Origin: Actinomycetota bacterium
GTDB taxonomy: Bacteria; Actinomycetota; Actinomycetes; Nanopelagicales; Nanopelagicaceae
DNA: 11,989 nucleotides
Reading direction: 5' to 3'
Assembly (NCBI GenBank): GCA_002737595.1
Contig: NSHZ01000046.1
Span: 1 to 11,989 of the forward strand
The notes under the pieces were generated by a model, which was not told the origin of the DNA, made no database searches, and was given only the letters and a program-made list of their open reading frames with translations. Numbering within the stretch: position 1 is the stretch's first letter; each line of letters starts with the position of its first letter. The position numbers and the translations under genes were made by a program. This document shows, in pieces, positions 4,017 to 9,605 of the stretch.

Positions 4017-4205
4017 CTACTGCCGAATGAAGCGAAGGTAAATAAGGTACATAGCGCTCACAAGCCCCACCAGAAATCCGATAACAACCAGAAAGTGGAG
4101 CCCAAGAAGATGGTCCAGGAACATCCCGACGCCACCCCACAGCAGAAGGCCGGCGAGCAAATAGGCGATGATGGTAAACATCGCCCCCTCGTCCTTAGAT
4201 GACAT
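4017..4205 (-). CDS. AtpZ/AtpI-family small membrane protein
   Basis: A 62-residue protein with two membrane helices (about residues 10-30 and 37-58) and charged ends (MSSKDEG at the N-terminus, RFIRQ at the C-terminus). The pattern [17 protein letters not shown] followed by a Gly-rich second helix ([12 protein letters not shown]) fits the AtpZ/F0F1-ATPase subunit family, in which an FLD-type motif closes helix 1 (Asp31 here). These small proteins sit at the head of atp operons and have been linked in Bacillus to Mg2+ uptake and in other bacteria to c-ring assembly; their role here is inferred. ATG 4205 follows GGGGAG by 3 nt, inside the end of the preceding gene. A TTG at 4232 would lengthen the frame but lacks a suitable ribosome site. 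The start overlaps the stop of the WecA-AtpI gene by 11 nt, indicating coupled translation. Confidence 0.8.
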
Positions 4206-5745
4206 GGGCTCCCCCACCTTCCGATTGGGCAATCGGTGAATTCTCTTCCTCCACGACCAAGGTCGGAATGCGCATGCGAAGGAATGCCGTTACCTCCCCA
4301 ACCAGCCAGAGGAGCACTGCTGTGATGGCGGTCACTCCAAAGTAGGCGTGATCAATACCATCCAGTGAGCGCATTGAAAGCAAGAGGGCTCCAAGCAGGA
4401 TGAGTTTGGCGAAGTAGGAGGCCATGGCCCACGCCATCGTGCCGGAGGGCGAACTCTTTCGAGTGAGCCGGCCTAGAAGTAGCGAGACTCCAAAAAAGAG
4501 TGCCACGATTCCCCCGGCGAGCAGAGCTGCCTTGACTTGGTCGCTCCGCTGGAGCACTTCGGCGTAGAGCACCGCCAGGACAACAGCGCCCCCGGAGAGG
4601 GAACCAGCCCAACGCAGCGTCGCACCCTCAAAGTTATTTCTCTTCATCCGACGTTTCTCGTCATGTTCTTTGGCCGGCAAGGAGCGCGTAAAGACCGCAG
4701 CTAGCACCAACGCCACCACCATGATGAACAACGCCGATCTCATCGGGATGAAAGCAATAGCACTCACTGGAAAAGCGATAGCGGCCGTCCATACGTAGAG
4801 CACCGACGTTGCTCCTCGAGGTGAGTGACCAATACGCAACAGACGATGATGAAGATGGTGTTTATCTGGCGTAAATGGCGATTTGCCGGCAGCGGTGCGT
4901 CGAATGACAGCCCACCCAAGATCCAAGAGCGGAATAGCAAGAATGGCTAACGGCAAGACGAGTGGCAAGAGTGCAGGCGCCAGATTCTCAGCTGAAAGAG
5001 CGTTCGCATCGAGTTGGCCAGTGATACTTATGGTGCATGCCGCCAATAAGTAGCCGAGCAACATGGACCCGGAATCACCCATAAAGATCTTGGCAGGGTA
5101 AACGTTATGCGGCAGGAATCCTAAGCAGATTCCCACCAACAGGGCAGTGAAAAGTGTGGCTGTGCCCGCTCGGCTAAATCCGTTAATCACAGCTAAGAGA
5201 TACGAGAACGAGAAGAAGGCAATTCCACCTATAGCAACAATCCCGGCAGCCAAACCATCGAGTCCGTCAACAAAGTTCACCGCATTGATTGCCACCAAAA
5301 CAACGAGAACGGTGGCAACAACGCCAAGGGTAGGCGGCAGGGCAATGACACCATTGATGGGTAGCCATAAGAGTTGCACTCCTTGAATGGCCATAACACC
5401 AGCAGCGAGAGCCTGCCCCGCCAACTTGGTGAGGGCATCAAGCTCCCAAAGATCATCAGCAGCCCCAAGGAGCGCTATAACTAATGCGCCACTAGCAATG
5501 GCGATTGGGTCGCGTGAATTTTCAAAAGCTTTATGAAGTAATGGCAAGTGATATGCCACCACTAATCCCACTGAGAGCCCGACCAACATAGCTAGCCCGC
5601 CCCAACGCGGAGTAGGGACTAAATGCACGTCGCGGGCCCTGATCGGCGCCATTGCTCCGAGACGAATTGCTAGCGATTTAAAAAATGGCGTCGCTAAATA
5701 TGTCACCGCCGAAGCGATGAGGGCAGCAAAGAGGTACTCGCGCAC
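4195..5745 (-). CDS. wecA: WecA/MraY-family sugar-phosphate transferase fused to a C-terminal AtpI-like domain
   Basis: Residues 1 to about 355 form a polytopic polyprenyl-phosphate N-acetylhexosamine-1-phosphate transferase, which starts cell-wall glycopolymer synthesis on undecaprenyl- or decaprenyl-phosphate at the inner membrane face. Motifs seen: IRARDVH..PTPRWGG (35-50), the Mg-binding DD pair at 97-98, [12 protein letters not shown] (157-168), FMGDSG (221-226) and the HHLHH cluster (296-300) that marks WecA-type enzymes. Residues about 367-516 are extra: a basic linker (EKRRMKRNN), then four hydrophobic helices (about 382-398, 406-425, 438-456, 467-488) ending [11 protein letters not shown]. 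This resembles the separate actinobacterial AtpI protein normally encoded here. Start GTG 5745 directly abuts the glyA stop (TAAGTG) and gives [15 protein letters not shown], the usual start of actinobacterial homologues. Met367 (ATG 4647) could serve as an internal start for a free 150-residue AtpI, but has only a weak ribosome site. The transferase call is firm; the AtpI assignment rests on topology, position and remembered similarity. Confidence 0.88.
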
Positions 5746-7002
5746 TTATCGAGGATACGCCGGAAATGCGTGAGTTAACTCGGTTACCTGCGCACGAATT
5801 TCCGCAGGGTCGCCTTTACCGCGTACTGCCCGCGAAATGAACTCTGCAATTTTGGCCATTTCTGGAATGCCCATTCCCTGCGTGGTCGCGGCCGGCGTGC
5901 CCACTCGAATTCCGGAGGTGACCGAAGGCGCCTCGGGGTCGAATGGAATGGAATTCTTGTTCAAGGTAATTCCAGCGGCATCGCACCGCTTTTCGGCGTC
6001 TGCGCCGTTTACACCGAGCGCCTGCAAATCGATCAAAGCAAGATGGGTGTCCGTGCCTCCCGAAACGGAGCGCATTCCATGCTCAGCCAGACTTGAGGAG
6101 AGCGCCTGCGCATTTGCAATGACGCTCTTTGCATAACTCTGATAGGCAGGCGTAGACGCTTCTTTCAGCGCAATGGCCTTGGCCGCCACCGCGTGCATAA
6201 GTGGACCACCTTGCATACCTGGGAAAATAGCCTTATCAATGGCGGCCGCATGAGCCGACTTGGAAAGAATCATTCCTCCGCGAGGACCGCGCAACACCTT
6301 ATGGGTAGTAAAAGATACGACGTCGGCATACGGAACGGGTGAAGGAATGGCTTTTCCGGCTACTAATCCGATGAAGTGGGCAGCATCGACCCACATAATG
6401 GCACCTGACTCGTCACAAATCTCACGGACTTTTTCGAAATCAACAAGACGTGGATATGCAGTTGCGCCAGAGCAAATCATTTTCGGGCGATGCTTCATTG
6501 CTAAGTCACGAAGCTCGTCGTAATCAATGAGTTCAGTATCTTGGCGGACGCCGTAAGAGACGATATCGAACCACTTACCTGAGAAATTTACTTTGGACCC
6601 ATGAGTGAGATGTCCACCATGCTGCAACGACATTGCAAGAACGGTATCTCCTGGCTTCGTGAAAGCGGCATACACTGCAATATTTGCACTTGCACCAGAG
6701 TGCGGTTGCAAATTTGCGTGCTCAGCGCCGAAAAGGGCTTTTGCACGTTCAATGCCAAGTATCTCGGCGCGATCGACATCAGCGCATCCACCGTAATAAC
6801 GCTTTCCTGGATATCCCTCTGCATACTTATTTGAAAGCGTTGAACCAAGTGCTGCAAGAACTTCAGGCGAAGTAAAGTTCTCGCTAGCGATAAGTTGTAG
6901 TCCGTCACGCTGCCGCTCTAATTCATCAAGGATGATGGTGGCAATCTCTGGATCCTGAGATTTCAACGCATCGAAATCGGGACCCCAGAACTCTGAACTC
7001 AT
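5746..7002 (-). CDS. glyA: Serine hydroxymethyltransferase
   Basis: PLP enzyme that converts serine and tetrahydrofolate to glycine and 5,10-methylene-THF, the main source of one-carbon units. At 418 residues it has normal length. Seen in the sequence: LIASENFTSPEVL (38-50), the KYAEGYPGKRYYGG segment (59-72), the PLP-contacting Asp206 and His209 in WVDAAHFIGLVAG, the Schiff-base lysine Lys235 in SFTTHKVLRGPRGG, and the carboxylate-binding arginine Arg366 in SGIRVGTPA. The ATG at 7002 is preceded by AAAGGAAG (7014-7007), a good ribosome site. It lies 22 nt after the Sua5-family gene and shares TAAGTG with the next gene, so it is probably in the same operon. Streptomyces also has glyA between sua5 and wecA. 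No odd features. Confidence 0.97.
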   Translation of the reverse strand: MSSEFWGPDFDALKSQDPEIATIILDELERQRDGLQLIASENFTSPEVLAALGSTLSNKYAEGYPGKRYYGGCADVDRAEILGIERAKALFGAEHANLQPHSGASANIAVYAAFTKPGDTVLAMSLQHGGHLTHGSKVNFSGKWFDIVSYGVRQDTELIDYDELRDLAMKHRPKMICSGATAYPRLVDFEKVREICDESGAIMWVDAAHFIGLVAGKAIPSPVPYADVVSFTTHKVLRGPRGGMILSKSAHAAAIDKAIFPGMQGGPLMHAVAAKAIALKEASTPAYQSYAKSVIANAQALSSSLAEHGMRSVSGGTDTHLALIDLQALGVNGADAEKRCDAAGITLNKNSIPFDPEAPSVTSGIRVGTPAATTQGMGIPEMAKIAEFISRAVRGKGDPAEIRAQVTELTHAFPAYPR

Positions 7003-7024: not shown

Positions 7025-7654
7025 TCACTCTACGACCAAGGAAGGTGCAACCTTGGCGAGGTCAAAGAACGAGATGCTTCCGCGCCGCACTAAACGAGGG
7101 GGCTTCACTGTGAGATCTATTACTGAAGATGTTCCTGCAACATTTTGTTGCCCCCCATCAACAACCAGGTCACACTCATCAGCGATTGCTATCTCACCCA
7201 CTTCATTGGCAAGTGGCTCCCCCGCGCGGGAGGCGAGCCCGCATGCAAGTGGCCCGGTGAGGCGGAGTAATTCGCGCAAATGAGGGGAACGAGGTTGGCG
7301 AACCACGAAAGATCCCATCTCTCGCCGATCCCCCAAATCCCACGCGAGACCACCTTGAGCAAGCACGAGCAGCGCTAGCGGTCCCGGCCAGAAGGCCTCA
7401 ATAAGTGCCGAACCCTCGTCATCTATCTCTCGAGCGATCCCATGCAAAGTGGGTTGATCTGCAATGAGGACTTGAAGAGTTGCCCCTGACTCCATCATGC
7501 GCAGTTCACGAATGCGTGCAGTAGCGGTGAGGTGAAAGGCGTCTGCAAGTAAGAGATAAGCATGCTCATCAGGGAATGCGACCACCCCACCCCGACGAAT
7601 TATTTCGCCAGCTTGAGTGACAGATTCATCATCGAGCAAAAGTGTGTGAGCCAT
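7025..7654 (-). CDS. Sua5/YrdC-family protein with degenerate active-site motifs
   Basis: Position and overall sequence identify the Sua5/TsaC (YrdC) family, whose members make threonylcarbamoyl-AMP from threonine, bicarbonate and ATP for the t6A37 tRNA modification. The 209-residue protein keeps the fold markers GGVVAFP (22-28), ALIEAFWPGPLALLV (83-97), AWDLGDR, the VRQP arginine (119), TSSVIDLT (175-182) and VRRG. The functional motifs are changed without gaps: the PTxTVYGLG loop reads PDEHAYLLL (28-36), the KxR pair reads RMM (52-54), and the SAN of the SSANxSG motif reads LAS (140-142). It may therefore be a pseudoenzyme or have an altered activity. ATG 7654 is chosen because GGAGGT lies 4 nt upstream, within the last codons of prmC; a TTG at 7681 would overlap prmC without a clear site. 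It lies 2 nt from prmC and 22 nt before glyA. Confidence 0.85.
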   Translation of the reverse strand: MAHTLLLDDESVTQAGEIIRRGGVVAFPDEHAYLLLADAFHLTATARIRELRMMESGATLQVLIADQPTLHGIAREIDDEGSALIEAFWPGPLALLVLAQGGLAWDLGDRREMGSFVVRQPRSPHLRELLRLTGPLACGLASRAGEPLANEVGEIAIADECDLVVDGGQQNVAGTSSVIDLTVKPPRLVRRGSISFFDLAKVAPSLVVE

Positions 7655-7656
7655 TG

Positions 7657-8499
7657 CTACCTCCGCACCGCTGATGTCCAACGAGGTCGATCATTGAAAT
7701 CGGTATGCAGTGTGACTTCTACGAAGTCTGGCGATAAGAGGGCTGCAATGGCTAGCCCTTGGTCTTCGCCATGTTCGCAGATAAATGTGCCACCTTGTTT
7801 CAGAAGTCGCGATGCTGCTTTGGCAAAGAGGCCGGGGATTTCTATTCCCGTATCTCCCCCACCGAAGAGGGCCTCCGCTGGTTCAAAGTTGCTTACTTCG
7901 AATGGCATTTCTGAGTGCGAGTTCACGTAGGGAGGATTTGCTACTGCAATATCTACTTGGCCATTGAGATCTTGGAGCGCATCTGCCACATCTCCTTGTT
8001 TGCATTCAATCGACGGAGCCAAGTTAGCGACATTTCTCTTTAACCAGACGAATGCAGAAGATTCACGTTCAACTGCAAGTACACGCGAACGTGGTACCTC
8101 GGTGGCAATCGAAAGTGCGATCGCACCACTTCCAGATCCAAGATCTACAACGATCGGAGTTCCGGGCATTGACTTAGCAGTATCTATCGCATGCTGAGCA
8201 ACGAGTTCAGTTTCCGGGCGAGGGATAAGCACACCGGGGCCAACCTCTACCTCGAGGTATCTGAAAGGTGCCAGGCCGATGATGTACTGCACTGGCACAT
8301 GGCTGCAACGCGTATCTACGTAGGACCGAAACGAATTTGCTTGTGCCGGCGAGAAATTCTCGTAGGTAAAGATTCGTCCGCGCTCTGTGTCTAGGACATG
8401 GGCAGCGATCAATTCGGCATCTACTCGAGGAGAGGCCACGCCAGCATCGCTAAGTTCACGAGTTGCCTCGGCTATTAACTCGCGCACGCTCTCGGCCAC
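7657..8499 (-). CDS. prmC: Peptide chain release factor N5-glutamine methyltransferase
   Basis: SAM-dependent methyltransferase that methylates the glutamine of the GGQ loop of release factors 1 and 2, raising termination efficiency. The 280-residue protein has the N-terminal helical domain (ELSDAGVASPRVDAELIAAHVL), the QYIIG and GVLIPRPETE (89-98) segments that join the domains, the SAM-binding loop VDLGSGSGAIALSIA (118-132) and the catalytic NPPY (188-191) that grips the target glutamine. Start GTG 8499 lies 2 nt after the prfA stop, with AGGT about 7 nt upstream inside the end of prfA. Its direct coupling to the gene for its own substrate (RF1) is a common bacterial arrangement. Nothing unusual in sequence. 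Confidence 0.96.
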   Translation of the reverse strand: MAESVRELIAEATRELSDAGVASPRVDAELIAAHVLDTERGRIFTYENFSPAQANSFRSYVDTRCSHVPVQYIIGLAPFRYLEVEVGPGVLIPRPETELVAQHAIDTAKSMPGTPIVVDLGSGSGAIALSIATEVPRSRVLAVERESSAFVWLKRNVANLAPSIECKQGDVADALQDLNGQVDIAVANPPYVNSHSEMPFEVSNFEPAEALFGGGDTGIEIPGLFAKAASRLLKQGGTFICEHGEDQGLAIAALLSPDFVEVTLHTDFNDRPRWTSAVRR

Positions 8500-8501
8500 T
8501 G

Positions 8502-9605
8502 TTACGACCTACGAGTCTGATCCGTAGCACCCACAGCAGAAAGTTTCGCTGCAGTATCTGCATCAACCAAAGATTGAATGACTGCTTCGAGATCACCGTC
8601 AAGCACTGCACTCAAATTGTAAGACTTGAAGTTGGTGCGGTGGTCACTGATGCGATTTTCCGGAAAGTTATATGTACGAATTCGCTCGCTGCGATCAACA
8701 GTCCGAACTTGTGAACGCCTGGCATCAGAAGCCGCTGCATCTTGTGCTTCTTTAGCTGCAGAAAGCAGGCGCGCGCGCATAATGCGAAGCGCAGATTCCT
8801 TATTCTGAAGTTGGCTCTTCTCGTTCTGGCACGAGACCACGATGCCGGTAGGAATATGCGTAAGTCGCACAGCGGAGTCAGTGGTGTTCACGCTCTGCCC
8901 ACCAGGACCACTCGAACGATAAACGTCGACCCGAAGATCGTTGAGATCAAGTGTCACATCAACTTCTTCCGCTTCGGGCATCACCAGCACGCCAGCGGCC
9001 GAAGTGTGAATGCGGCCTTGTGATTCGGTTTCCGGAACGCGTTGAACCCGATGGACGCCACCTTCGTACTTGAGGCGAGCCCACGGAGCCATTCCTGGTT
9101 GAGGTATTCCCTTGCTCTTCAACGCAATAGAAACATCCTTGTATCCACCCAGATCGCTTTCGGTTACATCGATGACTTCGACCTTCCAACCGACCCGCTC
9201 AGCAAAGCGCATATACATACGAAGTAAGTCCCCAGCGAAAAGTGCGGATTCATCTCCACCTTCGCCAGCTTTGATTTCAACAATGACGTCACGATCATCA
9301 TCTGGATCGCGAGGCAAGAGCAGTTCTTGAAGCGTGGCTGCTCTACTTTCTAATAATTCTTGCAGTGCAGGCAATTCGGCTTTGAAGGACTCGTCTTCTG
9401 CAGAAAGTTCGCGGGCAGTATCTAATTCTTCTTCTGCGCTCTTCCATGAGTTATATCCAGCGACGACTGGTCCGAGCTGGGCATAGCGGCGACCAAGTTG
9501 GCGAGCGCGCGCTGGGTCACTATGTACCGCGGGATCAGCTAGCTCGCCTTCAATCTCCGCATACTCACGAATTAGTTCGAGGGCTGATCCAAAATCGTCG
9601 GACAT
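8502..9605 (-). CDS. prfA: Peptide chain release factor 1
   Basis: Class I release factor that reads UAA and UAG and triggers hydrolysis of peptidyl-tRNA. At 367 residues it has normal length. The anticodon-like tripeptide is Pro-Glu-Thr (191-193) in [18 protein letters not shown], a PxT motif that marks RF1 rather than RF2 (SPF). The peptidyl-transfer loop is [20 protein letters not shown] with GGQ at 235-237, and the [16 protein letters not shown] block (112-127) is intact. ATG 9605 has AAAGGAGT about 6 nt upstream. The 86-nt gap to rpmE contains a strong hairpin, so prfA may depend on read-through or on a promoter too weak to recognise here. Downstream prmC follows after 2 nt. Confidence 0.97.

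Follow-up and report, generated by a model that had tools for sequence, protein, structure and literature searches.

A TsaC-derived protein without the KxR/SxN tetrad at the prmC–glyA locus of an actinobacterial family, probably retained for a role other than TC-AMP synthesis

Tetrad-less TsaC/YrdC-domain protein, encoded on the minus strand of a window of 11,989 nucleotides (the whole stretch of DNA analysed, contig NSHZ01000046.1). An ancestral operon-linked TsaC, relieved by Sua5, would have become a non-synthase that is kept for another role, probably one of binding. This explanation, based on sequence comparison, is held with moderate confidence. The features are as follows.

7025..7654, minus strand, tetrad-less TsaC/YrdC-domain protein, 209 aa, from ATG at 7654 to the stop ending at 7025.
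7529..7573, minus strand, altered PTxTVYGLG loop and following residues, residues 28–42, PDEHAYLLLADAFHL.
7487..7501, minus strand, altered KxR site, residues 52–56, RMMES, with K52 replaced by R and R54 by M.
7226..7237, minus strand, altered SxN site, residues 140–143, LASR, with S140 replaced by L and N142 by S.
7657..8499, minus strand, prmC (release factor glutamine methyltransferase), TIGR03534 above cut-off, immediately upstream.
8502..9605, minus strand, prfA (peptide chain release factor 1), TIGR00019 above cut-off.
5746..7002, minus strand, glyA (serine hydroxymethyltransferase), NF000586 above cut-off, 22 nt downstream.

The order on the minus strand is rho, prfA, prmC, the 7025–7654 gene, glyA, a wecA-like gene and atpB. 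Products of rho, prfA, prmC and glyA and ATP synthase subunit A each exceed a cut-off of NCBIfam profiles; the wecA-like protein matches TIGR02380 (NCBIfam) well below cut-off. The 7025–7654 gene is read from ATG 7654; the ORF list gives an upstream TTG at 7681. The prmC stop is followed after 2 nt by ATG 7654, and GGAGG stands directly before this stop. The wecA-like gene (4195–5745, minus strand) encodes in one frame a C-terminal Cg1360-family ATP-synthase-associated domain, above cut-off; in many relatives the wecA-like part and the Cg1360-family part are separate ORFs.

PF01300 spans the window protein over the full profile (102.9 bits, cut-off 25.1). TIGR00057, the NCBIfam equivalog for L-threonylcarbamoyladenylate synthase, gives 106.1 bits, below its cut-off of 123.2. 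PF03481, the Sua5 C-terminal domain, is absent. KxR/SxN is the signature of TsaC/Sua5 synthases (PMC3223725, PMC10321239; these papers and PMC12506659 are cited throughout for excerpts). The active site of P. abyssi Sua5 consists of K56xR58/S143xN145 together with T33, S181 and R195, and binds ATP and threonine; in yeast Sua5 every one of these residues is required, mutants being inactive (PMC10321239, excerpt). Aligned to the P. abyssi numbering, five of these seven residues are changed in the window protein. The tetrad reads RxM/LxS (R, M, L, S). In the threonine set T/S/R the T is replaced by D, and S176 and R190 are kept. Loop with T29 replaced by D, T31 by H, and both G34 and G36 by L; E30 and Y33 retained. 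Residue 139 is G, against Ser/Thr in single-domain orthologues. An earlier, sequence-only reading had described the loop as PDEHAYLLL, with RxM in place of KxR and LxS in place of SxN, and sequence and alignment agree with it. Its gapless alignment to the protein family was put slightly too strongly: alignment to 2eqa has small gaps and one residue near 113 is extra. In the multiple alignment, the copies of the window's bacterial family carry this residue near position 113, which is absent from 18 Sua5 representatives and 51 copies from outside the family.

The same motifs or close forms occur in G001–G004 (the closest of the genomes compared, with three congeners), and all ten database protein clusters at 86–95% identity carry them as well (PD[ED]H.YLLL, LR[ML]M, LAS). 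Chance or a single bad sequence is thereby ruled out. By the Nei–Gojobori method (10 pairs, five close genomes), dN/dS of the 7025–7654 gene is 0.046–0.105. Values for the neighbours in the same pairs are 0.026–0.063 for PrmC, 0.016–0.050 for PrfA, 0.020–0.032 for GlyA and 0.055–0.103 for the WecA-like protein, the last two with the identical G002–G004 pair left out. Selection on the gene is purifying and a little less strict than on its closest neighbours. The lost catalytic motifs and the TIGR00057 score below cut-off might suggest a pseudogene in decay or a sequencing error, but either is extremely improbable in view of these dN/dS values, the shared variant in G001–G004 and the ten clusters, and an altered copy at the locus in 71 of the 72 family genomes examined; sequencing error and recent decay were both rejected on the shared motifs and dN/dS. 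The sequence-only reading had likewise discounted a sequencing frameshift, and the variant motifs that it proposed to look for in relatives proved conserved. Between L033 (G004) and L034 (G002), glyA and the wecA-like gene are without any dN or dS; between these genomes the orthologues of the 7025–7654 gene have dS 0.337 and prmC dS 0.153.

Family set of 72 genomes examined (37 + 35), giving 71 copies and, with the window, 72 copies. G014 and the extra copies of G013, G014, G018, G023, G027 and G099 were left out. The altered copy is located at the prmC/glyA locus in every genome except G014 (89% complete). The KRSN tetrad is found at this locus in 0 of the 72 family copies, so that canonical motifs in close relatives, named in advance as evidence for error or recent decay, do not occur in the family. 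The commonest tetrad states are RDSA (25 copies), RDSS (10), RDST (6) and RDSG (6). Published active-site residues kept, of seven: 2 in 32 copies, 3 in 39, 4 in 1. Residues shared among the 72 copies are E30 (70), H31 (54), Y33 (72), H49 (59), R52 in place of K (65), D54 in place of R (54) and Q61 (66). Every copy has R190, and every copy has S or T at position 176. Column entropy at the E, Y and K positions is among the lowest 14% (47 representatives). Position 29 is variable, with ten different residues. None of the 72 copies retains loop glycine 34, and 61 have Y or F at position 35. The window's genus departs from the family signature, with R49 and M54. Several former active-site columns are thus re-conserved across the family copies, and others vary.

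The loss of the loop glycines and the common K-to-R and R-to-D exchanges suggest that the triphosphate of ATP can no longer be accommodated in the pocket. Since several pocket columns are re-conserved, and not randomised, a new enzyme may be considered, one whose pocket still binds a nucleotide and uses E30/H31/Y33, H49, R52-x-D54 and Q61 for another substrate or reaction; the invariant R190 and the S or T at position 176 are in keeping with it. This is rather unlikely: the loss of glycine 34 in all copies and Y or F at position 35 in 61 of 72 would fill the pocket, some former sites are variable (ten residues at position 29), and the window's own genus is off-signature (R49, M54). Only tentatively, the family's operon TsaC may be described as a new conserved protein with the pocket signature E-H-x-Y, H..R-x-D, A-Q-V, for example a TC-AMP/t6A regulator or carrier, or a ligand-sensing partner of PrmC or GlyA.

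Further divergent YrdC-domain copies away from prmC/glyA are L121 (G018), L144 (G027), L145 (G013), L134 (G023), L237 (G099) and L137 (G014); the extra copies of G013, G023, G027 and G099 form one strongly supported group in the tree. For ten family copies, of genera g7 and g15, the upstream stretch showed no ORF bearing the NPPY motif of PrmC; this stretch extends only about 1.4 kb in five of them and is cut by a contig end in G024. In 10 of 10 of these loci glyA follows the altered copy (among them L123, L128, L136, L141, L210, L217, L231, L233, L241).

Canonical two-domain Sua5 (KGR, SAN) is present in G001, G002 and G003, three of the four genus genomes; none was found in G004 (80% complete). 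Among 86 genomes of the order, each at least 93% complete, Sua5_C is detected in 67, including every one of the 17 that consist of a single contig. The 19 without a Sua5_C hit are more than completeness alone predicts. In one of them, G121, a contig end truncates a Sua5-type N-terminal domain; 17 others have no Sua5-type PF01300 match either, G077 being outside this count. In G006 and G011 pieces of Sua5 are cut by contig ends. All 29 full-length Sua5 domains (26 family, 3 outside) carry the KRSN tetrad and 7 of 7 residues, and SN is present in two contig-cut domains. The search for the other t6A genes proposed in the sequence-only reading covered 24 family genomes and detected TsaD in 24, TsaE in 23 and TsaB above cut-off in 22. 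TsaB tends to score low in family genomes, and in several of them its open frame is 329–363 aa long.

We infer that assembly drop-out is the likelier cause of a missing Sua5 in family genomes. Loss of Sua5 from fragmented assemblies through adjoining rRNA was considered and rejected; the RNA genes found in five 20-kb stretches of single-contig genomes are tRNAs, with no rRNA among them. Each of these stretches, L280–L284 (G019, G030, G012, G005, G108), has a cluster of three tRNA genes plus a fourth in the 20 kb that surround Sua5, and the Sua5_C match of G019 and that of G030 each have a tRNA gene no more than about 0.1 kb away.

That the altered residues still make TC-AMP, with t6A depending at least partly on the variant, is improbable. 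The 17 family genomes that have altered copies only and no Sua5 match would accord with it, as would E. coli YciO, which is without KxR/SxN and has trace activity in vitro (PMC12506659, excerpt); Sua5_C is, however, present in all 17 single-contig genomes, yeast Sua5 mutants at these residues are inactive (PMC10321239, excerpt), and where no Sua5 match is seen the locus copies show no better preservation, all 17 being without the tetrad. Of the two alternatives offered in the sequence-only reading, t6A synthesis by an unusual enzyme is thus disfavoured, although 19 of 86 order genomes lack a Sua5_C hit. The other is borne out in part: a second, canonical enzyme is seen as Sua5 in relatives (G001–G003; 17 of 17 single-contig genomes), and a new or regulatory role would fit the purifying selection and the shared new signature.

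Neighbours rho, prfA, prmC, glyA and wecA are common to other Actinomycetes, in varying sets. With the single-domain, prmC-linked TsaC of Actinomycetes the window protein shares locus, descent, similar length and the scaffold FWPG, WDLGD, VRxP and R-x-G, but differs at T29, K52, R54, S140, N142 and Ser/Thr 139 and falls below the TIGR00057 cut-off. F40 and the W of WDLGD are found in family copies and single-domain orthologues, not in Sua5. Sua5 has a homologous catalytic domain and occurs beside the altered copy in related genomes; its domains keep 7 of 7 residues and carry PF03481, whereas the window protein does neither. In a quick tree of 94 rows, a branch with SH-aLRT 85 (unstarred, no bootstrap) sets off the 28 family copies together with six extra copies of the family; Sua5 forms one group (98) and four YciO sequences form another (100).

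YciO resembles the window protein in that it is related to TsaC, lacks KxR/SxN and occurs together with an active synthase (PMC12506659, PMC3223725, excerpts). A YciO-type protein with an RNA-related role was weighed and is improbable. The change is of the same kind, the KxR/SxN signature being absent from YciO in the account of PMC3223725 (excerpt), and in E. coli YciO the K position is likewise R and the PTxT loop contains G-Y. E. coli yciO fails to complement loss of yrdC (PMC3223725, excerpt). YciO nevertheless occupies another branch and another neighbourhood and has other residues at the former active site: the four sequences stand apart from the family copies, T at position 29 and G at 36 are retained, and the active-site residues of TsaC are largely conserved (PMC12506659, excerpt), which is not so in the window protein. 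In E. coli rnm adjoins yciO, whereas the window gene sits in the prmC/glyA neighbourhood, that of TsaC; the rnm (RNase AM) neighbourhood of yciO is reported 'in many species' and so is not strictly defining. Descent from YciO was rejected on the tree (own branch, 100) and on synteny. YciO has a conserved positive surface patch, and overall charge was computed as a possible pointer to RNA binding; median pI is uninformative in this respect (72 family domains 5.27, 51 outside copies 4.91, 29 Sua5 domains 5.14, 4 YciO 5.51).

For the favoured reading, conversion of an operon TsaC to a non-synthase, the starting point would be the ancestral single-domain TsaC of the rho-prfA-prmC-tsaC-glyA-wecA-atpB cluster. 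TC-AMP for t6A would be made by a two-domain Sua5 encoded elsewhere, as seen in relatives and presumed for the window's genome. Released from its catalytic duty, this copy in the operon would have lost most of the ATP-binding tetrad and the threonine-binding T of the PTxT loop, glycines of this loop would have given way to larger residues, and a new, widely shared set (E30, H31, Y33, H49, R52, D54, Q61) would have arisen. Strong selection on the altered copy means that another role is probable. The product may be a pseudoenzyme-like protein acting by binding and no longer making TC-AMP; its target would probably be RNA or a nucleotide, or else a protein partner from translation or the t6A pathway.

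According to excerpts of a 2023 survey (PMC10321239), few species have both TsaC and Sua5, and some transfers went along with loss of the resident gene. KxR/SxN served as a filter for at least part of the sequences surveyed (same excerpts), so copies like that of the window would have been excluded there. The present family of freshwater bacteria with small genomes, probably Nanopelagicaceae (acI), keeps the altered copy under strong selection. No paper was recognised as describing this variant in the open-licence PMC literature, judged by title and start of abstract. A database relative, P0005 (88% identical to the window protein), is named by its source as a tRNA threonylcarbamoyl adenosine modification protein; the present evidence does not support this label.

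Partial loss of the same residues is observed in several other Actinomycetes families carrying Sua5. Outside the window's family, KRSN is kept in 35 of 36 copies from genomes in which no Sua5 was found, against 12 of 37 with Sua5 present, and lost in 1 of 36 and 25 of 37, respectively (Fisher p 2e-9, a test that ignores kinship). Kinship-aware pairing of Sua5 presence with tetrad loss leaves only 4 pairs on supported branches (median p 1), too few for adequate power. T29 is gone from two of the 12 KRSN-keepers (G041 and G122), which leaves 10 of 37 with the full set of 7; in the 36 copies whose genomes gave no Sua5 hit, 6–7 of the 7 published residues are present. In families f19, f20 and part of f17 the locus copy keeps KRSN despite Sua5. 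Sua5 may therefore permit loss of the tetrad but does not force it. The range in Actinomycetes (intact, partly changed, tetrad replaced) forms a natural series for the study of TsaC roles beyond TC-AMP.

Sua5-positive genomes number 96 (39 family, 57 outside). Of the 57, 45 together with G038 and G053 were searched and 10 were left unsearched. The 45 supplied 35 copies, ten genomes being dropped: G352 and G357 (single match), G127, G140, G363 and G393 (no marker gene next to the copy), G252 (only the YciO-like copy taken), and G332, G399 and G443 (second copy not taken). The single-domain copy of G053 is likewise not included. G038 and G041 were added to give 37, Sua5 of G041 being assigned by its place in the tree, not by PF03481. 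The set of 36 without Sua5 comprises the best 30 of 35 genomes and 6 others; absence means for the 30 that they are not among the Sua5-positive genomes and for the 6 that there was no match, other PF01300 proteins not being covered. Set aside, for lack of a Sua5 assignment, were G051, G055, five metagenome loci and Nocardioides. In the set lacking Sua5 a single copy is without KRSN, that of G161 (KRAN); another PF01300 match lies at a distance of about 1.9 kb from it. Pairs of PF01300 matches with this spacing occur in two outside genomes, at G151:C2 (L279) and G161:C234 (L278), and at both loci the canonical-looking copy reads T-A-A-N where others have S-S-A-N.
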